Shown here one piece after another: positions 13,581-36,838 of a stretch of 43,442 bases of DNA. Every line of letters starts with the position of its first letter. Position 1 is the stretch's first letter. The DNA comes from Bacilli bacterium. GTDB taxonomy: Bacteria; Bacillota_I; Bacilli_A; Izemoplasmatales; Izemoplasmataceae. The notes below the pieces were generated by a model. It ran no database searches. It was not told where the DNA came from and worked only from the letters and a program-made list of their open reading frames with translations. The stretch spans positions 1 to 43,442 of the forward strand of contig JAFGXW010000018.1 of assembly GCA_016936415.1 (NCBI GenBank). Reading direction: 5' to 3'. A program made the position numbers and the translations under genes.

Positions 13581-16500
13581 ATGAAGGCAATGAAGATAAC
13601 CTTAGCTACTGTACTGTTTGTATTTTCATTTTTGTTTTTTCATGTCCAAAATGTTTTAGCATCGAGTGCAGAGACATTAGTTGTTCATTACCATCGTTTT
13701 GATGATAGAAGTAGTGAATTTGATTTATGGTTATGGACGGGGGGAGAAAGTGGTTCTAATTACGCATTTAATGGGACTGATAGTTATGGTGTCAAAGCTA
13801 CGATTGATTTGACAAGCACCCCACTAAGTGGCGTAGATAGCATTGGGATAATTGTAAAAGTAGGAGATTTCTCAGAAAAAGACATCGAAGAAAACAGATT
13901 TATTTCAATGACAAATCCTAATGCATCTGGGGAAGTTCACGTTTATTTATTGCAAGGAGAATCATACATATCATATGTATCTTCTGATACAACAAGTTGT
14001 AACAAAGATGTATTTTTGGACCCTGATAATTGTGCACAAGATTTGAGTGTTAGAATTGTGGATTCATATTTTGATGATAATTATGATATTTTCTTTATGG
14101 CGACTGTGCCAGTTGCAGCAAGTAATGTTGTTGTATTAGAAGATGATATTGTAGTCCCATATACTGGATTTTCAACTGGAGCAAGTGGAACACTCCATTT
14201 AAATACTCCCCCGGTTTCATCTAAAAAATACGTTTTAGAAATAACAGTTGGGGAGGATACAATATCAAGTATTGTAAGATTTGGTAATTCATATGATTCA
14301 ACAATCTTTCAAAATGCATATAATTTTACTGGATGGCTAGGTGTGCAATATACCAATCTAGAAACAACATTCCGACTATGGGCACCTGTATCAAGTGAGG
14401 TTGAAATCAATCTATATTCTGCTGGTCACACAATATCCACCAGAAGTGATGGTGCAGACTCACCATATGAAACTCACAGTTTGACATATTTTGAAAAAGG
14501 TGTTTGGACAATCACAATTCCAGGAGATTTGAAGAATACGTATTACACATACAGTGTGATAAATAGTGGCACAAAGATTGAAGATATCCCAGATCCTTAC
14601 GGACAAACATTTGGGTTGAATGGTTTGCGTAGTATGGTTATTGATTTTGATTCTGCCAATCCAGAAGGTTGGGATTTAGACCAAGGTATAGATGGATATA
14701 CCAATGCTAATGAGGCCATTATTTATGAACTTCATGTTAGGGATTTGACAAGTCAGTTGGCTTGGGGAGGACCTTTAGAATATAGTAAAACTTATATGGG
14801 GTTTACGGTTTTGGGAACAACATACACCAATCCAATTACGGGTGTCACGGTTTCTACAGGATTAGACCATTTGGTTGAACTAGGAATCACGCACGTGCAT
14901 TTATTGCCGACATATGATCAAGATTGGAATGATGAAAGAAACTTTTTATTCAACTGGGGATATAACCCGCAAAACTACAATAGTCCTGAAGGTGGTTATT
15001 CAACAGACCCATATGATGGTAATGTTCGAGTAAATGAATATAAACAAATGGTAATGGCACTTCACAATAATGGAATAAACATCATTCAAGATGTTGTTTA
15101 TAATCATACTGGGCCTGGAGCATATTACAGTTTTAATCGGATTGTACCCAATTATTTTTATCGATTAAACTCGGATGGATCATTTAGCAATGGAACTGGT
15201 GTTGGAAATGAAACTGCAAGTGAAAGATTTATGGTGAGAAAATTCATTGTAGACTCAGTAACCATGTGGGCTGAAGAGTACCATATAGATGGATTTAGAT
15301 TTGATTTAATGGCTGTACACGATGTAGCAACAATGAATTTGGTCGCTATTCAATTAGAGAACATTGATGCAGACATATTTGTATATGGTGAACCATGGGG
15401 TGGAGGTACCATTGCACTTGATTATAATTTACAAGCCGGGAAAAACAACTTAAGTAATATGACTTTGATTTCAGCGTTTAATGATCAGTTTAGAGACACC
15501 ATTAAGGGTTCTACATGGGATGCTGGGAATGCAGGATATGTGAGTGATAGTGAAGGTGTTTTTGATGTTATGAACGGAATCAAAGGAAGTACAAGCTATT
15601 GGGGAAATACCTCAACCCAATCAATTAACTATGTATCTGCTCATGACAATTTGACATTGTATGATAAGCTTTTACGCGTGAATGGTGTAACTACCTACAC
15701 ACAAGAAGTGGATTATCAAACCAGGCTCGCAACTTCCATCATTATGTTTAGTCAAGGAATTCCATTTTTCCAAGGTGGAGATGAATTTTTAAGAACAAAA
15801 GGTGGAAATGAAAATAGTTACGACGCAAGTGATTTAGTGAATCAGTTAAGTTGGGTAAGAAAATCAAATAATATGGAAGTGTTTGAGTACTACAAGGGAA
15901 TTATTGAAATTAGAAAACAATTTGAATCTTTCCATATGATAACAAAAGCTGATATTGATGAACATCTAGAATTTTTATATCCTGATGGATATGGAATGAT
16001 TGGCTATCGTTTAACAAAAAATTCAGAAGATATTTTGGTATATCATAATGGTGGAAAATACTCAAATGATATTATATTACCTGAGGGAGCATGGAAACTT
16101 TTAAGCGATAGAGATGAGGCGGGATTGGCTGGGTTAGGAACATACTCGACAAGATATCCAATTGAAAAGGCGGAAACGCTTGTCTTTGTAAAAGGAGAAC
16201 AAGGGGATGTAATCGAATCACCATTGCATTCTCCAGAAATCACCAATACTCTCGCAGTAATGTTTGAAGGAGGAACTTTCAATTTGACATCTTCATCGAA
16301 TATATCGGCATATCAAATCAATGATGGAGATTTTATTTCTGTGGATATCCCTGCGAAAACTATTTCAGTAACTGGACTATCATCAGGCGTATACGAGTTT
16401 AGGGTGAAAGATATCTATGGAGGCATATCTGAGCCATTTACGTTTACTGTTTTAGAACGAGTGATTGTGGAGCAAACATGTGATGAATTCCCAGATCAAG

Positions 16501-16712
16501 AGAAATGTCAACCGTTAGAGCAAACATGTGATGAATTCCCAGATCAAGAGAAATGTCAACCTGTGGAACAAACTTGTACTGAAAATCCAAATCAAGACAT
16601 TTGTTTCATTGATGATAGTGATAATACAAACGTAAAAGTAATTATCATTTTAGCTGGAAGTGTTTTGATGATTGGTATAGGATTTGTTATCATAAAGAAA
16701 ATAATTATATAA
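13581..16712 (+). CDS. pulA: Secreted, C-terminally membrane-anchored type I pullulanase (GH13) with CBM41-like N-terminal domain
   Basis: Signal peptide; CBM41-like TLVVHYHRFDDRSSEFDLWLW; NWGYNPQNYNSPEGGYSTDP, GFRFDLMAVHD, VYGEPWGGG, VSAHDNLTLYDK; C-terminal TM helix. Confidence 0.92.
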   Translation: MKAMKITLATVLFVFSFLFFHVQNVLASSAETLVVHYHRFDDRSSEFDLWLWTGGESGSNYAFNGTDSYGVKATIDLTSTPLSGVDSIGIIVKVGDFSEKDIEENRFISMTNPNASGEVHVYLLQGESYISYVSSDTTSCNKDVFLDPDNCAQDLSVRIVDSYFDDNYDIFFMATVPVAASNVVVLEDDIVVPYTGFSTGASGTLHLNTPPVSSKKYVLEITVGEDTISSIVRFGNSYDSTIFQNAYNFTGWLGVQYTNLETTFRLWAPVSSEVEINLYSAGHTISTRSDGADSPYETHSLTYFEKGVWTITIPGDLKNTYYTYSVINSGTKIEDIPDPYGQTFGLNGLRSMVIDFDSANPEGWDLDQGIDGYTNANEAIIYELHVRDLTSQLAWGGPLEYSKTYMGFTVLGTTYTNPITGVTVSTGLDHLVELGITHVHLLPTYDQDWNDERNFLFNWGYNPQNYNSPEGGYSTDPYDGNVRVNEYKQMVMALHNNGINIIQDVVYNHTGPGAYYSFNRIVPNYFYRLNSDGSFSNGTGVGNETASERFMVRKFIVDSVTMWAEEYHIDGFRFDLMAVHDVATMNLVAIQLENIDADIFVYGEPWGGGTIALDYNLQAGKNNLSNMTLISAFNDQFRDTIKGSTWDAGNAGYVSDSEGVFDVMNGIKGSTSYWGNTSTQSINYVSAHDNLTLYDKLLRVNGVTTYTQEVDYQTRLATSIIMFSQGIPFFQGGDEFLRTKGGNENSYDASDLVNQLSWVRKSNNMEVFEYYKGIIEIRKQFESFHMITKADIDEHLEFLYPDGYGMIGYRLTKNSEDILVYHNGGKYSNDIILPEGAWKLLSDRDEAGLAGLGTYSTRYPIEKAETLVFVKGEQGDVIESPLHSPEITNTLAVMFEGGTFNLTSSSNISAYQINDGDFISVDIPAKTISVTGLSSGVYEFRVKDIYGGISEPFTFTVLERVIVEQTCDEFPDQEKCQPLEQTCDEFPDQEKCQPVEQTCTENPNQDICFIDDSDNTNVKVIIILAGSVLMIGIGFVIIKKIII
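16470..16604 (+). repeat. Tandem 48-bp repeat encoding Cys-rich linker (EQTCDEFPDQEKCQP x2 plus EQTCTENPNQDIC)
   Basis: 44-nt identical copies at 16470-16513 and 16518-16561; third degenerate copy in register from 16566. Confidence 0.95.
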
Positions 16713-20894: not shown

Positions 20895-22712
20895 ATGAGA
20901 AAACTATTATTATTAACTGTATCCCTATTAATTACTTTTGTATTAGTAGGTTGCGGTACAGATACAACTCCACCTTCATTTAATGGGGTTGTTCAAAATG
21001 CTACAATTACAGTAAAAGTTAATTCAAGTGAAGTTCCTCTTACAGGAATTTCTGCAACAGATAAAGATGGAAAACCTGTTAGTATTGTTATTACAGGTAA
21101 TTACGATTTAACTACAATTGGTACTTATAGTATTAATTTAGTTGCAACAGACCCAGATGGATATAGAACTACAATCGCAGTTACACTTAGTGTATTAGCG
21201 TTAACTTGTGAAGAAGATCCAGAACAAGATATTTGTAAAACAGCTTTAGATAAAGCTAGAGAATTATATGAAGGAACTATTTACAATGTCGATCTAAATC
21301 AAAATGGTACTCCTGACTGGCAAGAAGATACAATTGAATTGTCTATGGGGTATAGTTATTATGGTGACGACAATGAAGCAAATGCAGTATGGCAAAATGT
21401 TCTTAAATTCATGGAACAATATCCAAACATTACTGTAACAAGAGATCCATTATTCTCAAGTGGTTGGGAAAATGGTGATGATGGATTATTGGTTTTACAA
21501 GAAGCTGCTTTATTAGATGGAACATTACCTGACATTTTCCATAACCCAAAAGGTGCGGAAACATATGATAAAGGTATGACGATTGACTTAACTCCTTACA
21601 TCTTGACTGATGAAGAAGCAGGATTCATTACACCGAATGCATTAAGTGGAATGATGACTTACGATAACCTTGAAATGTGGGGTATTCCATGGCAAGGTGT
21701 TGGACCAATGGTTGTTCTTAATACTGGTTTATTAGAAGCATTGGACATCGATTTACCTGGATATGATTGGACTTATGCAGAGTATGAAGCGTTACGTAAT
21801 GAAGTTGGAGCGATTACAAATGCTGGACAATGTGTATTCCCTGGTGTTATTGACTTCTCAATTTTTGGACCAAACTATTTTGATAGCGTTCCAAATGGAT
21901 ACAAAGGATACAACTCTGTTACACAAAGATTCGATTTTGCTGGAGCTACTAATTATGGTGCTTGGTTAGAATCAGTTGCTACAGAAGCAAAACAAGGTTG
22001 GCATTTCTATGATTTAGATGAAGCTGATCGTGAAGCAACTTGTGAAGGTATTACAGATTCATGGACTGGTGGAGTACGTGCCGTGAATACAATCATGTTA
22101 TATTCATTTAACGCAGACGTTAACACAATGGTAAATAATGGTCAAACAATCGACATTTATCCATATCCTGTTGCACCTGCTGGTGGACAAACTGCTACTT
22201 ATACATATCATGACTATTACAGTATTTCAAAAACATTAGAAGCAGATAGAGTAAAAGCCGAAGCTGCATTCCAATTAACAAAGTGGTTAACATATGGTGT
22301 TGAAGGATTAGAAAGTAGATGGGATTTAATTTATGATAAAGACCCAGCATTATTCGCAAGTGGAGACTTATATTTAATGGATTATATTCAAGGTTGGCCA
22401 ATTACAAGTAATCCTGCAGTATTAGCAATGCATCCACTGGTAAAAGGATTCCCAACTGACGGACCATTAAACAGATATAATTTCGCTGCATTCCAAAATG
22501 AAGCGTTCCAATATCAAATGTCAAATGCGAACCCTTATCCACGTCAAACACCTGCATTCGCAAGTGTTGCAAACCCATTTGACCCTTGGACCATTAAAGA
22601 TCAAATGCGTGATGAATCATTAAGCTTTGAAGATATTGCACCAAATCTACAAGATACAATGAATGAAGCTATTGTTGAATATCTACAATATTACATAGGT
22701 TCAGGAAACTAA
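20895..22712 (+). CDS. ABC transporter sugar-binding lipoprotein with N-terminal Ig-like domain and Cys linker
   Basis: Lipobox LVGC; Ig-like domain then CEEDPEQDIC; SBP fold features (FMEQYPNITVTRDP, LDGTLPDIFHNPKG, WGIPWQGVGPMVVLNTGLLEAL). Confidence 0.85.
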   Translation: MRKLLLLTVSLLITFVLVGCGTDTTPPSFNGVVQNATITVKVNSSEVPLTGISATDKDGKPVSIVITGNYDLTTIGTYSINLVATDPDGYRTTIAVTLSVLALTCEEDPEQDICKTALDKARELYEGTIYNVDLNQNGTPDWQEDTIELSMGYSYYGDDNEANAVWQNVLKFMEQYPNITVTRDPLFSSGWENGDDGLLVLQEAALLDGTLPDIFHNPKGAETYDKGMTIDLTPYILTDEEAGFITPNALSGMMTYDNLEMWGIPWQGVGPMVVLNTGLLEALDIDLPGYDWTYAEYEALRNEVGAITNAGQCVFPGVIDFSIFGPNYFDSVPNGYKGYNSVTQRFDFAGATNYGAWLESVATEAKQGWHFYDLDEADREATCEGITDSWTGGVRAVNTIMLYSFNADVNTMVNNGQTIDIYPYPVAPAGGQTATYTYHDYYSISKTLEADRVKAEAAFQLTKWLTYGVEGLESRWDLIYDKDPALFASGDLYLMDYIQGWPITSNPAVLAMHPLVKGFPTDGPLNRYNFAAFQNEAFQYQMSNANPYPRQTPAFASVANPFDPWTIKDQMRDESLSFEDIAPNLQDTMNEAIVEYLQYYIGSGN

Positions 22713-22732: not shown

Positions 22733-22765
22733 CAATAACTCTTCAAAATTTTTGGAGAGTTATTG
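22733..22765 (+). terminator. Intercistronic hairpin between two SBP genes (processing/attenuation candidate)
   Basis: CAATAACTCTTC-aaaattttt-GGAGAGTTATTG, 12 bp including one G-U; no strong U-tract. Confidence 0.6.
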
Positions 22766-22799: not shown

Positions 22800-25700
22800 A
22801 TGACAAAAAAAATAATCATTATTACTCTATTACTTTCATTGTTATTCGGAACAAGAGTATTGTCTCACTTGAATAACATGGCATATGCGAAAAACCTGGA
22901 AGAAGAGGCTTCTTCATTAAAATATGATAGTATTGTTGAATCGAGTGCTACGTATTTAGAAGGTTATAGCGAAAGTAGTAGCTACTATGGTGTATATAAC
23001 TACTGGAAGGAAATCGGTATTGCTATCCCAGAAGAAATATATCATATATCTCAAAATGAAATCAGTGGTGGTGAAATTGTTTCCCCTGAAGATAGCTTTG
23101 GTGCTGAAACTAGCACGGTAAAAGTTACTCCCGGTCAAACAATTACATTCACGATTGATGTTTTAAATGAGGGGTTATATGAGTTCTCTATAGAAAACTA
23201 CTTGTTGGAGGAAACGTTATTAAGACCTTCATTGGCTGTGAAGATTAATGGTGATGTACAATACAATGAAATGTATAACTTAGAGTTACCGTTACAATGG
23301 GTTGTGGATAGTGAACCATTATTTGATCGTTTTGGTGATGAAATTACGCCAAATAGTTCACTATATAGTTCATGGGAAACAATTTTTTTGAATGACCCAA
23401 ATTATTTCTTTACGGAACCTCTTAAGTTTTTCCTTGCAGCTGGAGAAAACCAAATAACTATTTTGGTGAATGAAGGCTTTATCTTATTTGGGGATATCAC
23501 GATAGGAAATCTATCGACTGAAACTCGAACTTATTCCGAATACCAATCATTGGTATCCGATGCTCTTTCTGTGAATAAAAAAATCACGATTGAAGCAGAA
23601 CGATACACATTTGAGAGTAAACAAAATATTAGAGCAAAATTTCAAAGAAATCCTGCATTAACACCATATTCATATAAGAATCGAGTGTTAAATGTATTGG
23701 ATCAAACTTCTTATCGTAAAAGTGGAGATAGTGTGACCTATACGTTTGAAGTGGAAGAAACAGGAATTTATAATTTATCATTTAACTACATGCAAAGTGA
23801 AAATGAAGATCTATATAGTTCAAGATTAATTAAATTAGATGGGGAAGTGCCTTTTATTGATTTAGAAAGTTACGGGTTCCCTTATTCAAGAAGTTGGGCA
23901 AATGAAACGCTAAATAACAATGGAGTACCATATGATTTTTATTTAACTGCCGGAACACACACTTTAACAATGACTGCGGTTAATTCAAATGTGAATGATG
24001 TTTACCATCAATTGGTTGAAGTGTTAAGTGATATTAATGATTTGGCACGCGAAGTTAATAAAATCACTGGTGGTCTTACAGACCGCTACCGTAATTATAA
24101 ATTAGATGTCTATATTCCAAATATTATTTCAGAATTAACAAGACTTCGTGATGAAATAGTGAACGCTAAAACAGAGTTAATACAGATATATCAAACAAGT
24201 AATTCAGCTATCATTTCTGAGTTAGATGTTGCCATTAAATATATGAATCAATTTATTGATGATCCAAATGAAATTCCACCATTCCAATCTAGATTTAGTG
24301 TTGGGGATACTTCAATCTATGGAAGAATTAATATTATATTGCCTAGATTGATAGATAATCCTTTACAACTTGATAAAATATATGTTCATGGAGAAGGAAT
24401 GGAACTGCCAAAACCAAGTGCAAATATATTTGTCCGTGTTTGGGAGGGTATTAAAGCATTTACTTACTCATTCTTTGATCCTAAATATAACGAAGATTCT
24501 ACTGTGGATGATCAAACTGTAGAAGTTTGGGTCAGAAATTCTCGTTTGTATATTGAGGTTATGCAACGAATGATCGATGAAGATTTCACACCTGAAACAG
24601 GCATAAAAGTACAATTATCTGTTATGCCAGATGAAAATAAAATTGTGCTTGCTAACGCTGCAGGAACAACACCGGATGCAGCAATGGGATTATCTGTAAC
24701 AAGACCGTTTGAATTTGCTTTAAGAGGAATTGTTACTGATTTATCAGCATTAGATGGTTTTTACGAATTGAGCAATCAATTTAATTCTAGTTCATTTATT
24801 CCTTTTGTTTATGAAGAAGGAGTTTATTCTATCCCTGAAACACAAGATGTTAAACTGTTATTTTATCGAAAGGATGTAATGGAATTTCTAGGTGTAGAGC
24901 CTCCACAAACATGGGAGGAAGTGGTTAGTTTAATTCCGATAATGCAAAAATATAACTACTATTTCTATACACCACTAGGAGGAGACAATGCCTTTAAAAC
25001 ATTTGGAGAAACAACACCTTTTATCTATCAATTTGGTGGTGTTCTTTATAATGAAACAGGTGATAAAACTGTAATCAATGAAGATGCATCTTATGATGCT
25101 TTCGAGTTTATGACAGACTTGTTTAGTGTATATAATGTACCAATTACAACTTCAAATTTCTTCCAAAAATTCCGTGATGGACAAACTCCACTTGGAATAG
25201 GAGATGGAAATACCTATATTCAATTAAAATATGCTGCACCTGAATTAGCTGGGCAGTGGGGCGTGATTCCTATCCCTGGAATTGAGACTGATAAAGATGA
25301 AACAACATGTCCTGGTCCACTAAGTGATGATGGTCGTTGTATTGAACGTTGGGATCCGACGTATGGAACCAGTAGTATTATTTTCTCAGACTCTACCAAA
25401 AAAGACTTGGCATGGGAATATTTCTTATGGTGGTTTGAAAAAGATGTTCAAAGTGAATTTACGTATCAATTACAATCTTTATTGGGAGATGAATTTTTAT
25501 ATATGACTGCCAATATTGAAGCGTTTAGAACCAGTGCTTGGCCAAGTGATTCTAAATATGAAGTATTGGAACAATGGGAATGGGTTCGTACGACTGGACG
25601 AGTTCCTGGAGATTACTTACTAGAAAGAGAGTTAAGTAACGCTTGGAATAAAGTGGTAAATGACGGTGACAATGCCCGTGGGGCAATTGATGATGCAGTT

Positions 25701-25832
25701 ATTATTATCAACCGAGAATTAAAGCGTAAGTTAACTGAGTTTGGATACTTTGAGAATGGCGTGATGATTAAACCTTATACAGTACCTACTTCTGATACAA
25801 TTCATTTATGGCTAGAAAGAGGAGGTAATTAA
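22800..25832 (+). CDS. Large extracellular solute-binding protein fused to N-terminal CBM-like domains; no lipobox
   Basis: N-terminal hydrophobic segment without Cys; beta-rich CBM-like segments (ITIEAERYTFES..., GDSVTYTFEVEETGIYNLSFNYMQ); C-terminal SBP (KVQLSVMPDENKIVLANAAGTTPDAAMGLS). Confidence 0.8.
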   Translation: MTKKIIIITLLLSLLFGTRVLSHLNNMAYAKNLEEEASSLKYDSIVESSATYLEGYSESSSYYGVYNYWKEIGIAIPEEIYHISQNEISGGEIVSPEDSFGAETSTVKVTPGQTITFTIDVLNEGLYEFSIENYLLEETLLRPSLAVKINGDVQYNEMYNLELPLQWVVDSEPLFDRFGDEITPNSSLYSSWETIFLNDPNYFFTEPLKFFLAAGENQITILVNEGFILFGDITIGNLSTETRTYSEYQSLVSDALSVNKKITIEAERYTFESKQNIRAKFQRNPALTPYSYKNRVLNVLDQTSYRKSGDSVTYTFEVEETGIYNLSFNYMQSENEDLYSSRLIKLDGEVPFIDLESYGFPYSRSWANETLNNNGVPYDFYLTAGTHTLTMTAVNSNVNDVYHQLVEVLSDINDLAREVNKITGGLTDRYRNYKLDVYIPNIISELTRLRDEIVNAKTELIQIYQTSNSAIISELDVAIKYMNQFIDDPNEIPPFQSRFSVGDTSIYGRINIILPRLIDNPLQLDKIYVHGEGMELPKPSANIFVRVWEGIKAFTYSFFDPKYNEDSTVDDQTVEVWVRNSRLYIEVMQRMIDEDFTPETGIKVQLSVMPDENKIVLANAAGTTPDAAMGLSVTRPFEFALRGIVTDLSALDGFYELSNQFNSSSFIPFVYEEGVYSIPETQDVKLLFYRKDVMEFLGVEPPQTWEEVVSLIPIMQKYNYYFYTPLGGDNAFKTFGETTPFIYQFGGVLYNETGDKTVINEDASYDAFEFMTDLFSVYNVPITTSNFFQKFRDGQTPLGIGDGNTYIQLKYAAPELAGQWGVIPIPGIETDKDETTCPGPLSDDGRCIERWDPTYGTSSIIFSDSTKKDLAWEYFLWWFEKDVQSEFTYQLQSLLGDEFLYMTANIEAFRTSAWPSDSKYEVLEQWEWVRTTGRVPGDYLLERELSNAWNKVVNDGDNARGAIDDAVIIINRELKRKLTEFGYFENGVMIKPYTVPTSDTIHLWLERGGN

Positions 25833-25833
25833 G

Positions 25834-26736
25834 ATGCAAAACGACAAAGGAATTAAAAAAGCGTTTCAATCACCATATTTATTTATTGCACCTTATGCGA
25901 CACTGTTTATCTTAATTATTGCTCTTCCGGTTTTGGTAGCTATGGTTTTGAGTTTCACTTCATTTAATACGATTCAAACTCCTGTTTTTGTAGGGTTAAA
26001 GAATTATGTGGATATTTTCACTGGTGATACAGTATTTTTACAACATGCGGTATCTAATACCATTTTATTCAGTGTAATTGTTGGGCCAATTGGTTATATG
26101 ATGGCATTTTTCTTAGCTTGGATGCTTGCACAGGTACCACATAAAATTAGAACAATTTATGCTGTAATTATTTATTCACCATCGATTACTGGCGCAGTTA
26201 TGATGGCTTTTGTATGGCGTATTGTCTTTAGTGGTGATGAAACAGGGTACATGAATAATTTATTAATCAATTTCTTTGGTGTTGATTCACCAATTCAGTT
26301 TTTACAAGATGCTGATTACCTATTTCCTATTATGATTGTTGTATCATTATGGGGAAGCATGGGATTAGGCTTTTTAGCAATGCTTGCCGGGATTTTAAAT
26401 ATTGATCGAAGTTTGTATGAAGCAGCTGCGATTGATGGAATGAAAAACCGTTGGCAAGAAATTTTTTATATTACAATACCTTCCATTAAACCACAAATGC
26501 TCTTTGGTGCAGTTATGAGTATCATTGGAACTTTTAATGCTGCAGGATTGGCACAAGCTCTCGCTGGTGGTGGGGTTCCACCTCAATATGCTGGGTGGCT
26601 CATTGTAGACCATGCGAATGATTTTGGTTTCACAAGATTTGAAATGGGGTATGCAAGTGCCATTACAGTTATTCTTTTATTGATCGTGTTATTGTTCAAT
26701 AAGGTTGCTTACAAATTATTTGGAGAGAGGGGTTGA
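25834..26736 (+). CDS. Carbohydrate ABC transporter permease (MalF/UgpA type)
   Basis: Six TM helices; EAA loop EAAAIDGMKNRWQEIFYITIPSIKP. Confidence 0.92.
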   Translation: MQNDKGIKKAFQSPYLFIAPYATLFILIIALPVLVAMVLSFTSFNTIQTPVFVGLKNYVDIFTGDTVFLQHAVSNTILFSVIVGPIGYMMAFFLAWMLAQVPHKIRTIYAVIIYSPSITGAVMMAFVWRIVFSGDETGYMNNLLINFFGVDSPIQFLQDADYLFPIMIVVSLWGSMGLGFLAMLAGILNIDRSLYEAAAIDGMKNRWQEIFYITIPSIKPQMLFGAVMSIIGTFNAAGLAQALAGGGVPPQYAGWLIVDHANDFGFTRFEMGYASAITVILLLIVLLFNKVAYKLFGERG

Positions 26737-26740
26737 TACT

Positions 26741-27616
26741 ATGGCAAAATCAGGTATAACTTTTAATCCGGATCGTTTCCATAAAGACCAATGGCGTTTT
26801 CACGCTTTTCTTGGTGTGGTGTCGCTATTTATGGGATTGCCAATTATATTTATCGTAAACCATGCATTCAAACCATATAGTGAATTATTCGCTTATCCTC
26901 CAAAATTCTTTGTTAGAAGACCAACATTTGAAAACTTTTTACGATTGGCTACTTTTTCTTCTGAATCAGGTATTCCAATCAGCCGTTATATTTTTAATAG
27001 TATATTGGTAACAATTATTGTAATTATTGCAACAATCATCATTAGCAGTTTGGCAGCATTTGCGCTATCTAAATTAGATTTTAAAGGTAAAATTGCTCTA
27101 AATAAAATAAACACATTTAGTTTGATGTTTGTTCCTGTAGCTGTTGCAATACCTAGATTCTTGGTATTGATTAATATTGGAATATATAATACTTATTTTG
27201 CACACATTATTCCATTGCTTGCGATGCCAGTTGGTATTTTCTTGATTAAGCAATTTATGGATACCAATGTTCCAAAAGAATTAATTGAAGCAGCGAAAAT
27301 AGATGGGGCTGGGAACTGGCGCATTTATTGGAATATTGCTTTACCTTTGGTTATGCCAGCAATTGTTACAGTTGCTATTTTAGCATTTCAAGTTTCATGG
27401 GCAAATATGGAAGGTTCTAGTCTCTTTGTCGATAAAGAAGCGTTAAGAACTTTGCCATTCTATATGTCTACTGTTATATCACAGCAAGGAAACATCGTTG
27501 TTACTGCGGGTGTTGGAGCTGCTGCACAGTTGATAATGTTCATTCCTAACTTAATTATTTTCATCTTCATGCAAAATAAAGTTATGGCGTCAATGGCGCA
27601 ATCAGGTATCAAATAA
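26741..27616 (+). CDS. Carbohydrate ABC transporter permease (MalG/UgpE type)
   Basis: EAA loop EAAKIDGAGNWRIYWNIALPLVMP; ATG 26741. Confidence 0.92.
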   Translation: MAKSGITFNPDRFHKDQWRFHAFLGVVSLFMGLPIIFIVNHAFKPYSELFAYPPKFFVRRPTFENFLRLATFSSESGIPISRYIFNSILVTIIVIIATIIISSLAAFALSKLDFKGKIALNKINTFSLMFVPVAVAIPRFLVLINIGIYNTYFAHIIPLLAMPVGIFLIKQFMDTNVPKELIEAAKIDGAGNWRIYWNIALPLVMPAIVTVAILAFQVSWANMEGSSLFVDKEALRTLPFYMSTVISQQGNIVVTAGVGAAAQLIMFIPNLIIFIFMQNKVMASMAQSGIK

Positions 27617-30012
27617 TGAAAAAATTTAATGTAAATCGCGCAGTAGCAACTATATTATTTATGAGCATAGTCACTATTATGTTAATATCGACAACTAGTA
27701 GTGTTTTTGCAAGTAGTACACCTTATTATACCTATACAACCGACAACGAATTTGGCTGGGTTAAAACAAGTGATGCCTATACGCCTGCAGGTCAAATTTT
27801 AAGTGCTGGAGGAGAAGCTTTCAAAACACCTGAGTATGTTTATGTTGATCATGAAGATTATGTATATATTACAGATTCTGGTGTATCAAAAGTGTATATA
27901 TTTGATAAAGATTTGAATTATGTAGATACCATGGAGTACTATGAATCAGCTATTGGTTTAAAGGATGGATTCCAAGCTGTTAATAGTGTGTTTGTTACGG
28001 AAGATAAAATCTATATCCCAGACTCTTTCCGTAAATGTGTATTTATTTTTGATCGTGAGAAAACCTTGAATCGTGAACAACAATATAATCTTTGGATGGA
28101 TGATGTTGACGGTAATGAAGAAATCTCATCAGGTGATTTATTCTACTTAAGTGAAGAAGTGGATGGGGAACAAGTTCCTATGGGAACACCTGTGTATGAA
28201 GTTGAAGTTACTGGACTAACCGAAGACGACAACAAGATTGTTGATTTTAAAGATTATGTAACAAATGAAGTCATGTTTACGAAAATTGATAAAGACGAAA
28301 TGCGTGGAAAATTTTTAAGTTGGGTTACCGCGGAATATGAGTCAAAAACATTGTTAATGTATACCATGTATGCATCAAAAAATGTTCCGATTCAAATCAT
28401 CAAGACACCTGAAGCACCTGTGTTTATTGAAGGATATACATTTGCACCTAAAAAAATCGCTGTAGATACTAGAGGGAATATGTATATTGTTGGTGCACAA
28501 TCCGATAATGGATTAATCATGTTGAACTATGAAGGTGAATTTTTGACTTTCTTTGGAGGTAACCCATTAAGAACGCCATTTATTGATCAAGTAAGATCGT
28601 TATTATTAAGTGAAGTTCAAAAGAAAAAACTCCGTGAAGAGTCGCAAATTTACATTGATTATGTGAGTAGTGTTGCGATTGATAAGAAGGGATTTATCTA
28701 TACAGTTACTTCAACATTAGAAGATAATGTTATAAAAAAATACAATGTATCAGGTAGAAACTACTTTAGTAATGATGCAGCAGGATGGGTTGGTGCTGTT
28801 GATTTATGGGTTGGTAATTATGGAAATGTTGTTGTTGTCGAAGAATTTGGTTGGATTAATGAGTACAATTCTGATGGACAACTGATCTTTAGTTTTAGTG
28901 TTAGTGATCGTGGGATCGATCGTGAAGGACTACTTAGTTTACCAAAGAGTATCGCCATTAGTTCGGAAGATAAGCTATATGTAGTTGATCAGGGGAATAA
29001 ACTACTTCAAGTATATGAACCAACAGAGTTTGCAAATGCTGTGCACACTGCTTTACAAGCATATCAAGATGGTGACGAAGCTCTTGCAAAACAAAATTGG
29101 AGTTATTCTTTAGAATATGCAACAGTATTTGATTTAGCGCATATTGGGCTTGGTGATGCTTACGTAAGACAAGAAGATTATGCTGCTGCACTTCGTGAAT
29201 ATCAATTGGCTTCATATAAAGTTGGTATATCGGATACATATTGGCAAGTTAGACAAGATTGGATGGAACAAAACTTAGAGACTGTTTTTACCGTTATTAT
29301 TGCGTTTGTTGTGTTACAGTGGATTCTTCGTTTTGTGAATAAGAGATATTTGTTTACCAAAAAAATTGGAACCAAAATACAGGAACTTAGAAAGAAAAAT
29401 AGTGTGATTGATGAGTTGTTCTATATTCCAAAATTTATCAAAAACCCATTGGATGGTTTTTATCAAATCAAACGTAAAAATCGAGTTTCTGTCAAAACAG
29501 CAAGTATTATTTACTTTGGTTTAGCATTGGTATTTGTGATGTACTATGAATTGACAAATGTAATATTTATTGAGGACTCTAATCCGAATATTTTATATGA
29601 ATTATTGATTTTAGCAAGTGTGTTAATCCTTTGGGTAGTTGCTAATTATTTCGTTTGCCTTATTAATGATGGAGAAGGATCGTTTAAAAATGTATATGTT
29701 TCTACAGCGATGAGCTTTACTCCAATATTCTATGTCATTCCTGCATTAATATTACTGAGTAATGTTTTGACTTACCAAGAAGCAGTATTCTATAGTGTAC
29801 CAATGACATTTACAATGATATGGGTTGCAATCTATTTCTTCTTCATGATTAAGGAAATTCATAATTATGAAGTCGGAGAAACCATGGGTATTATTTTTAA
29901 GAGTATGTTTACAATGTTGATTATGGGTATTTTTATCTTCGTAGTCTACTCACTAAATAGTCAAATTTTCACTGTCTCAACTGAGATAGCTAGGGAGATG
30001 ATTGAAAGATGA
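27616..30012 (+). CDS. Membrane protein: extracellular NHL/beta-propeller repeats, TPR-like segment, C-terminal YIP1-like multi-TM domain
   Basis: Signal peptide; repeats FKTPEYVYVDHEDYVYITDSGVSKVYIFD and LLSLPKSIAISSEDKLYVVDQGNKLLQVYEP; TPR-like GLGDAYVRQEDYAAALREYQLA; several C-terminal TMs after IPKFIKNPLDGFYQIKRKNR. Confidence 0.8.
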   Translation: MKKFNVNRAVATILFMSIVTIMLISTTSSVFASSTPYYTYTTDNEFGWVKTSDAYTPAGQILSAGGEAFKTPEYVYVDHEDYVYITDSGVSKVYIFDKDLNYVDTMEYYESAIGLKDGFQAVNSVFVTEDKIYIPDSFRKCVFIFDREKTLNREQQYNLWMDDVDGNEEISSGDLFYLSEEVDGEQVPMGTPVYEVEVTGLTEDDNKIVDFKDYVTNEVMFTKIDKDEMRGKFLSWVTAEYESKTLLMYTMYASKNVPIQIIKTPEAPVFIEGYTFAPKKIAVDTRGNMYIVGAQSDNGLIMLNYEGEFLTFFGGNPLRTPFIDQVRSLLLSEVQKKKLREESQIYIDYVSSVAIDKKGFIYTVTSTLEDNVIKKYNVSGRNYFSNDAAGWVGAVDLWVGNYGNVVVVEEFGWINEYNSDGQLIFSFSVSDRGIDREGLLSLPKSIAISSEDKLYVVDQGNKLLQVYEPTEFANAVHTALQAYQDGDEALAKQNWSYSLEYATVFDLAHIGLGDAYVRQEDYAAALREYQLASYKVGISDTYWQVRQDWMEQNLETVFTVIIAFVVLQWILRFVNKRYLFTKKIGTKIQELRKKNSVIDELFYIPKFIKNPLDGFYQIKRKNRVSVKTASIIYFGLALVFVMYYELTNVIFIEDSNPNILYELLILASVLILWVVANYFVCLINDGEGSFKNVYVSTAMSFTPIFYVIPALILLSNVLTYQEAVFYSVPMTFTMIWVAIYFFFMIKEIHNYEVGETMGIIFKSMFTMLIMGIFIFVVYSLNSQIFTVSTEIAREMIER

Positions 30013-32324
30013 TGAAAAAACTAATGTTATTTTTAGTAATTCCAAGTGTAATTTTTGGTGTTTTTGCTCTTTCTAGAATCGTTTCTGCGAAAGAAATTGA
30101 TTATGACGTTTTATATGGAAATTCATTACACGATGTTGATTATATTGGAAATACCTATATTGAAACCGTAGACAAAGATTTAATGAATTATAATGTTGTG
30201 ATTCCTCCTTCATTTGTTTTAATGAGTGAAGATGACACATTACAACTATATTTAGAAGAAGAAACGTTGGCAATTGCTGTTAGAGTGAAAGCCAATGGAT
30301 ATGTTTATTCATCTTATAATTTTAACGATTCTTTTGCTGGAAAAGGGGCTTCAGTAGTTAATCCAATTAAGTCAGGTGTTGTGCTTGATTTATACAAAGA
30401 AAGTACACCAACCTCACAGTCATATCTTGATGAAAAAGAAGTATTTATTGATGGTGTATCAACGGTATCTCAAATTGCAAAATCTGTGATAACTCCAACA
30501 TTAAATGGCTTTAAAGCTGCCATTGATTTTGATAATCCAGAATTAATGATCAAGTTTGATTTATATGTAGAAATTATTCAAGGGGAATTGGTAGTAAATA
30601 TCCCAAATGATTCCATTATTGAATACAATCCAAACTTATGGGTAACAGGAGAAGAATATTACTCTCTACGTAATATTGTCTTATTCCCTTATTTTGGAAG
30701 TACAAAATCGGTTAACGATGGTTATGTAGTGATTCCTGATGGAAGCGGTGCGTTAATCTCACTTGAAGCTTCGCCTGATATCAAGGCTTCGTTTACACTT
30801 GATGTGTATGGAGATGATTTGGGATACTCTTCTCCAGCATTTCGTACGAGAGCTTTGAGTGTAAAAGATGTAGCACGTATCACGATGCCTATCTATGGTA
30901 TGGTACATGATGTCGGAAATACTGGTTTCTTGGTGATTAGTGAATCTGGTGCAAATTATGGACTATTGAACTTTAAATCAGCTGGAATCATCAATGATTA
31001 TTATAATACGTATTTTAGTTACCGTTACCGTGAAAGCTATGAACAATATCAGTCGCGAGCAAACGAAGACCAATATCGTATCTCATTACAAGAAGAATTA
31101 GACCAATATGATTTGACTCAAAAGTATGTGTTCCTAAGTGGAGAAGAAGCATCTTATGTTGGAATGGCAAAAGCATATCAAAATTATTTGCTTGATTCAA
31201 ATCAATTAGGAGATAAAAGACGAAGTATATATTCCGAAACACCGACAAAAATTGATTTTATAGGTGCGGAGATTACCAATGGAATCTTATCTTCAAAAAC
31301 ACAAGAAGTTACAACATATAATGAAATAGTTGAAATTTTAAAGGAACTAAAAAATGATGGGTATTCTGAATTGATTGGTTCATTAAAAACTTATAATATG
31401 AGTAAGGATAGTTATCGTTTTGATATTTATCGTCAACTTGGTGGAAAAAGTGATTTTGAAAATATGTTGAAGTATATGGCGGATAATGACATTCCATTTA
31501 GTTATTATTCAGATTATGTAAGAAGTTATGCTGACTATTCAAAAATGCATGCACAAACATTAAGCAAACGATCGATTTATTACATTGAGCTATCTTGGAT
31601 GTTTTATGCACATAATACCGTTTCAGCAAAATACTATATGGATTTTGCAAAGGACGATGTGGATGAGTTAAGCAAGTACAATATTAACAGTATTGCACTA
31701 GCAGGTTTTGATCGTTCTATTTTTACTAGTTATAAAAATCGTGTTATTTTCAGCAATGAGAATATGGATTTGATTATGGAAACGCTCGCCTATTTAAATG
31801 AGCAAGAGATTCATACGAACTTGTATTTGCCAGATGCGTATTTGTATCAATATGTAGATGAGTATTATGATGCACCAATTGGTTCATCAGAGTTTAGTTT
31901 CCAAGCAGCAACGATTCCGTTTTTACAGTTGGTTGTTGGTGGGTATATGGATATGTATTCTCCATATTTAAACTTTGTTTCTGATGAAACGACATCATTG
32001 CTACGCATGGTTGAATTTGGTGTATTCCCAAGTTATGTTTTAACGGGATCTTCACCATATGTGTTGAAAAATACTAACTCTAGTAATGTTTATATCAGTG
32101 AGTATAGTGTTTTATCAAGAAGAATTGGTGATTATTATAATTTAATTAATGAGGGATTAACAGCCACAATTGGATTAGAAATGACAGACCACACATTTCT
32201 AGCTGAAGGTGTTAGTATGGTTGAATATGATAATTCAACACAAATAATTATCAACTATAATACAGTTGATGTCACCATAGGCTCAATCATCGTTCCGAGC
32301 CAAGGATATGTGGTGATACCATGA
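30009..32324 (+). CDS. DUF5696-like secreted protein
   Basis: Signal peptide; large C-terminal domain with VVIPDGSGALI and position beside YIP1/permease genes, which I associate with DUF5696; no family search run. Confidence 0.65.
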   Translation: MMKKLMLFLVIPSVIFGVFALSRIVSAKEIDYDVLYGNSLHDVDYIGNTYIETVDKDLMNYNVVIPPSFVLMSEDDTLQLYLEEETLAIAVRVKANGYVYSSYNFNDSFAGKGASVVNPIKSGVVLDLYKESTPTSQSYLDEKEVFIDGVSTVSQIAKSVITPTLNGFKAAIDFDNPELMIKFDLYVEIIQGELVVNIPNDSIIEYNPNLWVTGEEYYSLRNIVLFPYFGSTKSVNDGYVVIPDGSGALISLEASPDIKASFTLDVYGDDLGYSSPAFRTRALSVKDVARITMPIYGMVHDVGNTGFLVISESGANYGLLNFKSAGIINDYYNTYFSYRYRESYEQYQSRANEDQYRISLQEELDQYDLTQKYVFLSGEEASYVGMAKAYQNYLLDSNQLGDKRRSIYSETPTKIDFIGAEITNGILSSKTQEVTTYNEIVEILKELKNDGYSELIGSLKTYNMSKDSYRFDIYRQLGGKSDFENMLKYMADNDIPFSYYSDYVRSYADYSKMHAQTLSKRSIYYIELSWMFYAHNTVSAKYYMDFAKDDVDELSKYNINSIALAGFDRSIFTSYKNRVIFSNENMDLIMETLAYLNEQEIHTNLYLPDAYLYQYVDEYYDAPIGSSEFSFQAATIPFLQLVVGGYMDMYSPYLNFVSDETTSLLRMVEFGVFPSYVLTGSSPYVLKNTNSSNVYISEYSVLSRRIGDYYNLINEGLTATIGLEMTDHTFLAEGVSMVEYDNSTQIIINYNTVDVTIGSIIVPSQGYVVIP

Positions 32325-33415
32325 GAAAAGTGATGAGAAGTATAAAGAGTGGTCTCTTAAAAACAAAACATTTTGTTGTTTCAGTTTTGGAAAAAGCGAT
32401 GAATTTTATTGGTAACTTATATGATTCAAAGCCTATTTTTGCTGTTAGAAGTTTTATTGTAAAAATATTGAAATTCATCATAGTTGTGCCTTGTGTCTGG
32501 TTCTATCAACACGTAATAGACAAAACTGTAGGTAAACTAATCAAAAAATCGTGGTTTAAGGCAACATTCGCACAAAAAAGAGCAATTACAGGTTATTTAT
32601 TTGTTCTGCCTTGGATTATCGGGTTTGTAGGGTTAGTAGTTTACCCATTTGGTAGAATCGTTTATATGAGCTTAAATAATGTTAGTTTATATCAACAAAA
32701 TTATACGTTTGACTGGGTTGGGTTACGAAATTTTGAAAGAATATTATTTGAAGATATTGATTTTGTTCTTGAGATTCAAAACTTTATCGTAAGGGTCTTA
32801 TTGTACTCACCAGTAATTATTACGCTTTCCATTATTATAGCAATGTTATTGAACCAAAATATTAAAGGAAAAGGTTTCTTTAGAATGGTATTCTTCTTAC
32901 CAATCATTATTCTAAATGGTGAATTACTTGAGAATATGAGTAACTATGGTGGTATGGATATTAATTTAAGTTTCTTTGTTATTGATATAATCACTACCAT
33001 TGTTCCACACTCAGCATTGGACTTATTTGTTGGTCTGTTTGAAATTATTATTGAAATACTTTGGTATTGTGGTGTTCCAATCTTAATCTTCTTAGCCATG
33101 TTGCAAAAAGTAGATAAAAGTCTATATGAAGCAGCATCTATTGATGGGGCAAACAGTTGGAGTATATTCTGGAAAATTGTACTACCTGCCATTTATCCGG
33201 CAATTAGTGTTTCCATCATTTTCATCGTTGTATTTCTAGCAAACTTTGATGGAAATCCGATTAATCTATTAATTTTACAGTCTAAGAATGACGGTTCACG
33301 TCGAGACGGATATGCTTCGGCAATGGCTCTAATTTATGCATCACTTCAAATTGTAATAATTTCCTTATTATTCTTACTAACAAGAGATCGCTCAAGTAAA
33401 AAGGAAAGGGTGTGA
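32321..33415 (+). CDS. Carbohydrate ABC transporter permease with ~90-aa basic N-terminal extension
   Basis: EAA loop EAASIDGANSWSIFWKIVLPAIYP; ATGA overlap with upstream gene. Confidence 0.9.
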   Translation: MRKVMRSIKSGLLKTKHFVVSVLEKAMNFIGNLYDSKPIFAVRSFIVKILKFIIVVPCVWFYQHVIDKTVGKLIKKSWFKATFAQKRAITGYLFVLPWIIGFVGLVVYPFGRIVYMSLNNVSLYQQNYTFDWVGLRNFERILFEDIDFVLEIQNFIVRVLLYSPVIITLSIIIAMLLNQNIKGKGFFRMVFFLPIIILNGELLENMSNYGGMDINLSFFVIDIITTIVPHSALDLFVGLFEIIIEILWYCGVPILIFLAMLQKVDKSLYEAASIDGANSWSIFWKIVLPAIYPAISVSIIFIVVFLANFDGNPINLLILQSKNDGSRRDGYASAMALIYASLQIVIISLLFLLTRDRSSKKERV

Positions 33416-33419
33416 GAAG

Positions 33420-34586
33420 ATGACCAAATATGAAGAGTTAAAGAGAAAGATATCAAATAAACTTCCAACTTGGAAAAAGCATCTTATTGGGAACGGAAAT
33501 GGCAATGGTGTTTTATTTAAAATTGCAATTTACTTCCTTTCAATCACCTTTGCATTTGTATTTATTTATCCGATATTTTATATGTTTATGATTAGTTTAA
33601 TGTCAAACACAGACTTAGTGGATAGCACAATTCTTTGGATTCCATCTAGTGTATACTATCAAAACTATTTGTTTGCGGTAAATGGACTAAGTCTAGATGA
33701 ATCTTATTTTAAAACAGTTATTAATATCTTCCTACACAAAGATTTAATCATCACATCACCATATATGGTTGAGGTAAGAAAACTAATTGTTATCATCGCA
33801 ATTATCCCAATTACAGTATTATTTGGAGGAATCTACTTTGAAAACAAAGGGAAACTATTTGGTGTAAGTTTGTTTATTGTTGTTTTAATTATGATTTTCC
33901 CTAAGAGTTATGTAGATAGTTTATATGTTGCAGGAACCACTACTTTAGTAACGGTATTTAGTAGTGCAATAATTGGGTATGGTTTGGCAAGATTTGAGTT
34001 TAAAGGCAAAAAATTAATTATGGTTTTGATGTTATTGGTGTATGTATTACCAAAGACATTATTGTTTATTTCAAGAAGTCAATTGTATGGTACTTTGGGA
34101 ATTAAAGGAACTATGTTTGCACTTTGGATCCCGTCATTTATGGGTCAAGGGTTACAAGCCACTTTCTTTATATTAATATTCTTTCAATTCTTTAAAATGT
34201 TACCAAATCAGATTGAAGAATCGGCTTATATTGATGGTGCAAATACATTGACAATTTTCTTTAGAATTGCCATTCCAATGGCTGTGCCAGCCTTTGTCAT
34301 TTCAATCACTTATGGATTTGCAGTGAACTGGAATGAATTGTTCTTAACCAATATTTATTTAAACGGAAACATCAAGACAATTCCAATGTTACTACAAGGT
34401 TTGCAAGCAGCTTGGGGTAGCGTTGCAGACTACTCAACAGGTAGTGATGTGGTGAATGTTGACTTCACAGAAGCCAAAGCATTTGCTGGAACAATGTTAT
34501 CAATCATACCTCTTGTAATTATGTACGGAATCATTCAAAGATACTTTATTGAAAGCATTGATAAATCAGGAATTACAGGTGAATAA
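33420..34586 (+). CDS. Carbohydrate ABC transporter permease
   Basis: EAA-like loop ESAYIDGANTLTIFFRIAIPMAVP, multiple TM helices. Confidence 0.9.
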   Translation: MTKYEELKRKISNKLPTWKKHLIGNGNGNGVLFKIAIYFLSITFAFVFIYPIFYMFMISLMSNTDLVDSTILWIPSSVYYQNYLFAVNGLSLDESYFKTVINIFLHKDLIITSPYMVEVRKLIVIIAIIPITVLFGGIYFENKGKLFGVSLFIVVLIMIFPKSYVDSLYVAGTTTLVTVFSSAIIGYGLARFEFKGKKLIMVLMLLVYVLPKTLLFISRSQLYGTLGIKGTMFALWIPSFMGQGLQATFFILIFFQFFKMLPNQIEESAYIDGANTLTIFFRIAIPMAVPAFVISITYGFAVNWNELFLTNIYLNGNIKTIPMLLQGLQAAWGSVADYSTGSDVVNVDFTEAKAFAGTMLSIIPLVIMYGIIQRYFIESIDKSGITGE

Positions 34587-34617
34587 AAAAAGTGTAGTCA
34601 TATTGACTACACTTTTT
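34587..34617. terminator. Bidirectional terminator between convergent permease and amylase genes
   Basis: AAAAAGTGTAGTCA-tat-TGACTACACTTTTT. Confidence 0.93.
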
Positions 34618-36838
34618 AATTCACTAAGGTATCTAATAATTCAAAAGGTAATTTTAGGACAATACTACCATTTGGAGAGATGCCTCCAAAATCAGTATCA
34701 AAAGTGCTATATAGAATTTCGTAACTACTAAACTCATTTGGAATAGGTACGTGGTTTCTAGAACTAAAATTAAAGAGTACAATGACGAGTTCAGAATCTT
34801 CTCCGTTATCAAATACGCGATAGTATCCTTCTAATCCAGTAGATGAATATGGAATAAAGTCTCCGTAACTTAAAGCAAGACTGTGGTTTCTTGCATACCC
34901 AATATCAATGTATGATTGTAAAATAGATTGATTATCCAATAATTGAACGCTAACTGGGTCAACATTAGAGTCTGCATAATTGATTGGCATTGTATCGTAA
35001 TAATCTCCCCATACCATTGATGTTCTTTGCCCCATAATTCCAATTTCGTCACCGAAATATATGTATGGATTTCCAGGTAAGAATAATACAACTTCTGCAG
35101 CTAACCTAGCTTCTTGAATGTTATCTTCAAAAATGCTGGCGATACGCTCTTGATCATGATTCCTTAAAAAAGGAGCATCAATATAATTGGAAGAATATTT
35201 GGAAATCTCTGAATATATTTGTTGTATTGAAGACGACAAGGAAGTTCCTAAATAGCCATTTATAGAGGCTATAATTCGATCTGATACTTCAAAATTAAAT
35301 GCAGAAATCCCCGAACGATAATACTTTGCATAAGTAGTGTAACTGTCCCATGCCTCGCCAACTATATAGACATCAGGATTACTGAGAGAACAGTGATTTT
35401 TGAAACCAGTTAAAAATTCAATATTTGCTTCTGTATTGTTTGGAATGTCTAGGTATTCGTTTACGCCAAAAATATGTGCAATTGCATCCATACGATATCC
35501 TGTAACTCCTGTTTCTTCAATCCACCAAGTACCAACATCATAAATATAGTCAATAACTTCTTGGTTTAAATAATTAAGGTCAGGCATCCAATCGGAGAAG
35601 TAGGCAGCATAGTACTTGCCACTTAAAGAAGAATGTACGGTAAAAGATGTTTTTTTCAAGTGTGGATTGGCAAATGGATTATACCAAATAGTTTGTCCCC
35701 ATGAGCCTTTTAGATTGAAGCGAGGATCATTAGAATCTATCCAAGTAAACCAATCATAATAATTGCTAGTTACACCATTTTTAAGGACATCTTGGAATAT
35801 TGAATTATATGCTCCCATATGATTGACCACTAAATCAATTATCACATCTATTCCCATTTCTTTTGCGGTGCTTACCAGTTCTTTAAAATCAAGCATTGTT
35901 CCATATTCATTATCAACTTCATAATAATCATCTGTCTCATAACCATGATCAGATCTTGATTGCATAATTGGCATTAGCCAAATTCCACCAACACCCAGAC
36001 TTTTTAAATATGGTAGGTTATCAATAATTCCTTGGAAGTCACCAATATTATTGTTGTTGCTATCTGCGAATGTTCTAACATATATCTCGTAGTAAATTTT
36101 ATTGTTTTTATAAACCAATTGATAGTTAGTGCCAGATACATTTTCATCTGGAAGGGTAATGATTCTTGAGGTATCTCCTAAATATTCATCTACGCATTTT
36201 GTTTGAAAGGGATCTTCGATACAGCTTTTTGCTAATACAGAAATCACTTTTGAAATGGTAAAGTTTCCATCGACAGTAGAAATTGTAATGGTTACAGTAC
36301 CTTCACTAATACCAAATACGTATCCATAACTACTTACAGTTGCAATGGATTCATCACTTGATGTGATTGTAATATCTTGATTTGTAGCATCTGTTGGTAA
36401 AATCTCCCATTTTAACTTGATGAATTCATCAATAAATACTTCAGTTAAAGAATTACTTTCTTCAGCAAAAGAAATACTTGATACAAGAGTACTACATTTA
36501 TCTTGTGTATTGTCTTCTTCACAAGATAGTTCAACCACATTGATGATTATGTTTAATTCGCCCTTAGTTTGTTGGTCATCAAAAACAAAAAGCACGACTG
36601 GGTAAGTGCCAACCGTATTTAAATCATATGTGCCATCGATTTCAATCAATTGTGATAAATCATTCCCATCTTCATCAAAAGCACTGATGACGCTGAAATC
36701 AAATGAGTCAGTCCCAATTTTCACATCAAAGATAGTATCATCTGGATAATTAAATGTGATGACACGATTTGTTTTATTGCATGAAGTTAAAGTGAACAAC
36801 AACAATAGAAGTAAAAATCCTGTGATTAATTTTTTCAT
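34616..36838 (-). CDS. Lipoprotein alpha-amylase family (GH13) enzyme with N-terminal Ig-like and BIG2-like domains
   Basis: Lipobox LTSC; YEIYVRTFADSNNNNIGDFQGI, VIDLVVNHMG, GYRMDAIAHIF, YIVGEAWD, FLRNHDQERIAS. Confidence 0.92.
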   Translation of the reverse strand: MKKLITGFLLLLLLFTLTSCNKTNRVITFNYPDDTIFDVKIGTDSFDFSVISAFDEDGNDLSQLIEIDGTYDLNTVGTYPVVLFVFDDQQTKGELNIIINVVELSCEEDNTQDKCSTLVSSISFAEESNSLTEVFIDEFIKLKWEILPTDATNQDITITSSDESIATVSSYGYVFGISEGTVTITISTVDGNFTISKVISVLAKSCIEDPFQTKCVDEYLGDTSRIITLPDENVSGTNYQLVYKNNKIYYEIYVRTFADSNNNNIGDFQGIIDNLPYLKSLGVGGIWLMPIMQSRSDHGYETDDYYEVDNEYGTMLDFKELVSTAKEMGIDVIIDLVVNHMGAYNSIFQDVLKNGVTSNYYDWFTWIDSNDPRFNLKGSWGQTIWYNPFANPHLKKTSFTVHSSLSGKYYAAYFSDWMPDLNYLNQEVIDYIYDVGTWWIEETGVTGYRMDAIAHIFGVNEYLDIPNNTEANIEFLTGFKNHCSLSNPDVYIVGEAWDSYTTYAKYYRSGISAFNFEVSDRIIASINGYLGTSLSSSIQQIYSEISKYSSNYIDAPFLRNHDQERIASIFEDNIQEARLAAEVVLFLPGNPYIYFGDEIGIMGQRTSMVWGDYYDTMPINYADSNVDPVSVQLLDNQSILQSYIDIGYARNHSLALSYGDFIPYSSTGLEGYYRVFDNGEDSELVIVLFNFSSRNHVPIPNEFSSYEILYSTFDTDFGGISPNGSIVLKLPFELLDTLVN

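Follow-up and report, generated by a model that had tools for sequence, protein, structure and literature searches.

The window, the whole 43,442-nucleotide stretch of DNA analysed here, carries a gene cassette that would be best read, with a probability of about 0.6, as a substrate-specialised CUT1-type glycan ABC importer with two obligate accessory subunits, its predicted substrate in the window being alpha-glucan. The cassette spans 22800-34586 and encodes an approximately 1000-residue solute-binding protein (SBP2), permease pair A (PA1 and PA2), a propeller/TPR/Yip1 protein, a DUF5696 protein and permease pair B (PB1 and PB2) (Table 1). The first-pass annotation had described two MalF/MalG-type permease pairs flanking two large proteins between 25834 and 34586, and this layout was confirmed: all six genes lie co-directionally on the plus strand, with the claimed start/stop overlaps present as TAATG at 27614-27618 and as ATGA at 30009-30012 and 32321-32324. 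The proposed extent of the unit takes in all six of these genes and is nevertheless too narrow, since SBP2 (22800-25832) is an invariant member.

Table 1. Features of the cassette and its surroundings in the window.
Feature	Coordinates	Strand	Description	Basis
Type I pullulanase (PulA)	13581..16712	+	Upstream of the cassette	TIGR02104, 620.8 bits, over cut-off
SBP1	20895..22712	+	Lipoprotein (lipobox VGC); Ig-like domain and family-1 sugar solute-binding domain	
Hairpin	22733..22765	+	15-bp stem and T-rich tail between SBP1 and SBP2	Pattern only
SBP2	22800..25832	+	1010-aa extracellular protein; C-terminal SBP_bac_1 (maltose-type solute-binding) domain; invariant member	
PA1	25834..26736	+	MalF/UgpA-type permease	Pfam, NCBIfam, EAA motif
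PA2	26741..27616	+	MalG/UgpE-type permease; start revised from 26705	Pfam, NCBIfam, EAA motif
Propeller/TPR/Yip1 protein	27616..30012	+	Signal peptide, NHL/SBBP beta-propeller, TPR, one TM, basic linker, five-TM Yip1 domain	
DUF5696 protein	30009..32324	+	Signal anchor at the N-terminus; profile relation to GH129; lacks the catalytic acid pair	
PB1	32321..33415	+	MalF-type permease; N-terminal extension; intact EAA loop	Pfam, NCBIfam, hydropathy
PB2	33420..34586	+	MalG-type permease; extra ~100-aa membrane segment; intact EAA loop	
Inverted repeat	34587..34622 (about)	.	AAAAAGTGTAGTCA-TAT-TGACTACACTTTTT, between converging genes	Sequence
GH13 alpha-amylase lipoprotein	34616..36838	-	Cassette neighbour in six loci of the window's clade	

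The operon starts at 22800 at the latest, or further upstream, and likely ends at the long inverted repeat that follows PB2. The hairpin between SBP1 and SBP2 is terminator- or attenuator-like by pattern only; this strong hairpin may result in a higher expression level of SBP1, whose gene lies in the same neighbourhood as the cassette. SBP1 is a neighbour only and is absent from some cassette loci. The profile of its relatives matches solved sugar-binding proteins (E 1e-38), and profile searches assign both SBP1 and SBP2 to the family-1 sugar-binding proteins typical of CUT1 importers; the long N-terminal part of SBP2 gives weak, carbohydrate-related matches. Further upstream, a 1298-aa protein (16983-20879) adjoins the pullulanase, and its sole domain match is a weak pullulanase-associated one.

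All four permeases of the window are of the MalF/MalG type and carry the EAA coupling loop. Each matched the Pfam domain BPD_transp_1, PB2 with a sub-threshold 21.5 bits (cut-off 26.4), and the identity of PB2 is backed by GlcU/MalG NCBIfam matches and an intact EAA motif. The listed TTG start of PA2 at 26705 is probably wrong and was moved to the ATG at 26741, 5 nt past the PA1 stop, because a ribosome-site-like stretch, GAGAGGGG, precedes that ATG. Across loci, an EAA-like loop was found in 77/78, 79/79, 81/81 and 80/80 of the four permeases, with a loose pattern applied to PA1 and part of PB1. With the loop kept in all four, each pair would be expected to be capable of ATPase coupling. No ATPase gene lies within the cassette, and its motor is likely an unlinked enzyme of the UgpC type. 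The window's own genome encodes such a UgpC/MsmK-type ATPase near a transketolase-like gene (G000:C69:237-1325, L095), a candidate to power its sugar importers. It is 57% identical to the ugpC found directly 5' of the cassette in Paenibacillus, and UgpC-like open reading frames occur near five further cassettes.

Conservation was scored in 83 loci using HMMs made from the proteins of the cassette. Apart from the window, the loci came from 80 regions, each at most 20 kb long, taken from genomes within its phylum, and from two plasmid regions with annotation; one phylum accounts for 81 of the 83 loci. The order SBP2-PA1-PA2-NHL-YIP-DUF5696-PB1-PB2 on one strand was found in 74/83 loci, window included, with DUF5696 present partly by selection, most regions having been fetched on a DUF5696 match. 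Eight of the nine incomplete loci are cut by contig ends. The gene order is unshuffled in all 74 complete loci, and both accessory genes always lie between the permease pairs. The possibility that the homologues mostly occur without ABC permeases was checked and was not borne out, both pairs being present in these 74 loci; chance juxtaposition of the genes was rejected. A profile of the cassette-type Yip1 domain, which provides a test independent of the DUF5696-based choice of regions, gave 97 matches in 40/299 genomes, all with E <1e-46, and 90/97 of these adjoin a listed DUF5696 match. The remaining seven occur in three genomes (G066, G188 and G223) for which only four DUF5696 candidates had been scored, and inspection of the sequences found DUF5696 adjacent in all seven. 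When 72,556 plasmids were searched, each accessory protein matched the same two records, from Paenibacillus cellulosilyticus and Butyrivibrio fibrisolvens, both with the full cassette in the same order. Coverage beyond the phylum is thin (two loci), because both accessory proteins match these two records only. The carriers include rumen, soil and Mycoplasmatota-like lineages, some genomes holding four or more copies. A second DUF5696 gene, present as a C-terminal fragment at a contig end (G000:C15:2987-3172, L002), means that the window's own genome probably holds a second cassette.

Pairwise-distance correlations among the seven cassette proteins range from 0.79 to 0.95, those of DUF5696 being 0.93 with the propeller protein, 0.88-0.89 with pair B and 0.79-0.82 with pair A. 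The one true exception to the complete arrangement, L124 (G023:C3, 8404-11509), is a reduced or decayed form in which a 339-aa protein corresponding to the C-terminal 40% of DUF5696 is followed by pair B; GH30, GH16 and LacI genes are present, and SBP2, pair A and Yip1 are missing. The full set is therefore not always kept. The closer tracking of pair B by DUF5696 distances, together with the pairing in L124, faintly suggests that DUF5696 may serve pair B. Co-inheritance of this kind speaks for a functional link, not for physical assembly. Functional coupling of the cassette parts is well supported, and the parts may be coupled physically as well, perhaps as the stoichiometric assembly suggested by the first-pass annotation. 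In its strongest form, physical coupling would mean one membrane supercomplex in which the Yip1-propeller protein, together with a pseudo-glycosidase that threads long glycans, links the two importer cores, and whose branches would be tuned to alpha-glucan, beta-1,3-glucan, beta-1,2-glucan and peptidoglycan fragments; we regard this arrangement as tentative, with the balance somewhat against it. It is unlikely, if still to be reckoned with, that the cassette instead comprises two ordinary, independent CUT1 importers that are merely co-transcribed (SBP2 with pair A, and SBP1 or another binding protein with pair B), the accessory proteins being surface glycan handlers that never touch the permeases. 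Two binding proteins and two complete EAA-bearing pairs would suffice for two importers, and L124 retains pair B and a portion of DUF5696 but has neither pair A nor Yip1; however, the fixed order, with the accessory genes always between the pairs, argues against this reading, and a single pair occurs on its own in L124 only.

Of the NHL, TPR and YIP1 domains assigned to the first accessory protein by the first-pass annotation, NHL passed its Pfam cut-off and Yip1 came close to it. In the window, NHL scored 21.2 bits against a cut-off of 20 and SBBP 23.5 against 20.5, while Yip1 (PF04893) reached 27.1 bits vs a gathering score of 28.6; cassette relatives from Butyrivibrio (50.4 bits) and Paenibacillus (37.7 bits) exceed the Yip1 cut-off. 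The TPR match is faint when the sequence is searched alone and strong in the family profile. Hydropathy analysis places a signal peptide at residues 9-27 and a transmembrane segment at 556-574, followed by the basic linker and by five peaks between 624 and 777, the number expected of a Yip1 domain. The propeller-TPR and Yip1 parts are fused in 56 loci and encoded by two adjacent genes in 24; in the split loci the propeller-TPR gene closes with one transmembrane segment and a basic tail, and the separate Yip1 gene encodes ~206-240 aa. Applying the positive-inside rule to this layout, the basic linker is predicted to lie on the inner side of the membrane, and the propeller and TPR on the outer side. 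AlphaFold2 models of the two accessory proteins made without an alignment had pLDDT values of 30.5 and 36.0, too low for use.

The second accessory protein proved to be DUF5696-like as proposed, matching PF18952 over the cut-off at 455.7 bits across profile positions 5-612 of 612. Because its sole hydrophobic segment is N-terminal, it is predicted to be anchored or secreted. The family profile (A1) matches structures of GH129 and 3,6-anhydro-D-galactosidase enzymes with E values of 1e-4 to 1e-7, which indicates distant relation, not membership. Most GH129 proteins and free-standing relatives from Planctomycetes have an FIDT/YIDV-like Asp and a GSEGG-like Glu, which we take to be the GH129 catalytic residues; the Glu is absent from L092. 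Acids occupy both columns in 0/62 cassette members and lie within two columns of both sites in 4/62, the exact columns being uncertain because sequence identity in the GH129 alignment is about 20%. The single fully conserved acidic column in the cassette proteins is an even D/E mixture. Since no cassette member has acids at both columns, we infer a GH129-like pseudo-enzyme that would bind glycan. Free-standing DUF5696/GH129-like proteins occur in G350 (L090, L091) and other Planctomycetota and number about nine in a single genome; most have the acid pair, and they may be a set of active glycosidases not yet described. A single-protein DUF5696 search of genome contigs gave one weak Planctomycetia match, and single-protein searches of viral contigs gave none.

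It is very improbable that the two accessory proteins form a surface glycan sensor that controls the operon or the transporter and takes no part in transport. In favour of a sensing role, which the first-pass annotation had raised for the propeller, a propeller joined to membrane helices would resemble receptor layouts and a pseudo-enzyme would suit binding, but Pfam and hydropathy analysis found no cytoplasmic signalling domain in either protein, and many cassette loci have their own LacI regulator. The chance that DUF5696 is an active glycosidase processing the incoming chain at the transporter is slighter still, and this was rejected as its main role: the profile relation to GH129 and 3,6-anhydro-D-galactosidase and the acid pair of most free-standing relatives would fit, but the cassette members lack that pair and share only the mixed D/E column.

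The importer with obligate accessory subunits is further characterised by its neighbouring enzymes, by which a tree of concatenated cassette proteins splits the loci. One branch has GH13/pullulanase (the window), another GH16 and GH3, and another PF10091 (GH144-type) with SOGP-type GH94; further branches have NamZ with MurQ-like SIS and BadF kinase, or NAGPA or GHL10. When 60 loci were labelled by their most specific enzyme, the five classes required four changes on the tree, the minimum, compared with at least 28 in 1000 shuffles, although related loci inherit neighbours by descent and the 60 are therefore not independent cases. The labelling ignored GH3 and LacI, which recur in several classes, and passed over loci in which no enzyme was recognised; a GH13 is also present in three of the GH144 loci. 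Because single genomes hold several classes (e.g., G028, G034, G204, G212 and G232), the split does not follow species history. Cassettes with NamZ, MurQ-like SIS, BadF kinase and DUF624 (L033, L044, L048, L066, L069, L072, L075, L077, L078 and L080) suggest that importers of this type also take up peptidoglycan fragments. The earlier idea of a glycan-uptake machine is supported, on genomic grounds, as a dedicated multi-gene cassette conserved well outside the window's own genome, while restriction to glycogen or pullulan was rejected for the family as a whole, its branches carrying different polysaccharide enzymes.

In the proposed mechanism, extracellular pullulanase and amylase would trim alpha-glucan, and SBP2 and SBP1 would capture the chains. 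Outside the cell, the DUF5696 pseudo-glycosidase would bind each chain or present it, and the propeller/TPR/Yip1 protein, its propeller-TPR part extracellular and its Yip1 domain in the membrane, would hold the extracellular components beside one or both permease cores. Shared UgpC-type ATPase dimers would power uptake.

Parts of the cassette are annotated piecewise in public records (the Paenibacillus and Butyrivibrio plasmids). A literature search, with subscription literature and preprints outside its scope, found no paper that describes the cassette, treats DUF5696 or links Yip1 to sugar ABC transporters, in line with the first-pass annotation, which knew of no mechanistic description. Families annotated only as DUF5696 and YIP1 gain a functional context and are seen to form a single genetic unit together with two permease pairs, and the substrate class of a branch becomes predictable from neighbouring enzymes. 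If long chains are imported, the cassette would represent a strategy by which monoderm bacteria generally take up glycans.

The cassette shares with CUT1 importers (MalEFGK2, UgpBAEC and MsmEFGK) its sugar-binding proteins, MalF/MalG-type EAA permeases and UgpC/MsmK-type shared ATPase, and differs from them in having two pairs in an invariant unit, an approximately 1000-aa binding protein and obligate Yip1-propeller and DUF5696 partners. DUF5696 resembles GH129 (NagBb; 3,6-anhydro-D-galactosidase) in matching solved structures over its N-terminal and barrel parts, whereas the cassette members have no conserved catalytic acid pair, are membrane-anchored and are tied to an ABC importer. Like the Yip1 family (PF04893), the cassette has a five-TM domain, but one that is fused or coupled to an extracellular propeller-TPR part and has no membrane-trafficking context. 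The Sphingomonas alginate importer AlgM1M2SS/AlgQ, also a glycan ABC system, takes up a polymeric glycan through one permease pair, in contrast to the two pairs and accessory proteins of the cassette, and we know of no Yip1, propeller or DUF5696 partner for it. SusCD-type systems of Bacteroidota perform TonB-dependent outer-membrane uptake and combine a conserved core with many different glycan enzymes. The cassette core is likewise conserved and paired with varied glycan enzymes, with no homology between the two systems, and the tentative supercomplex would, by analogy, make the cassette a monoderm counterpart of SusCD.
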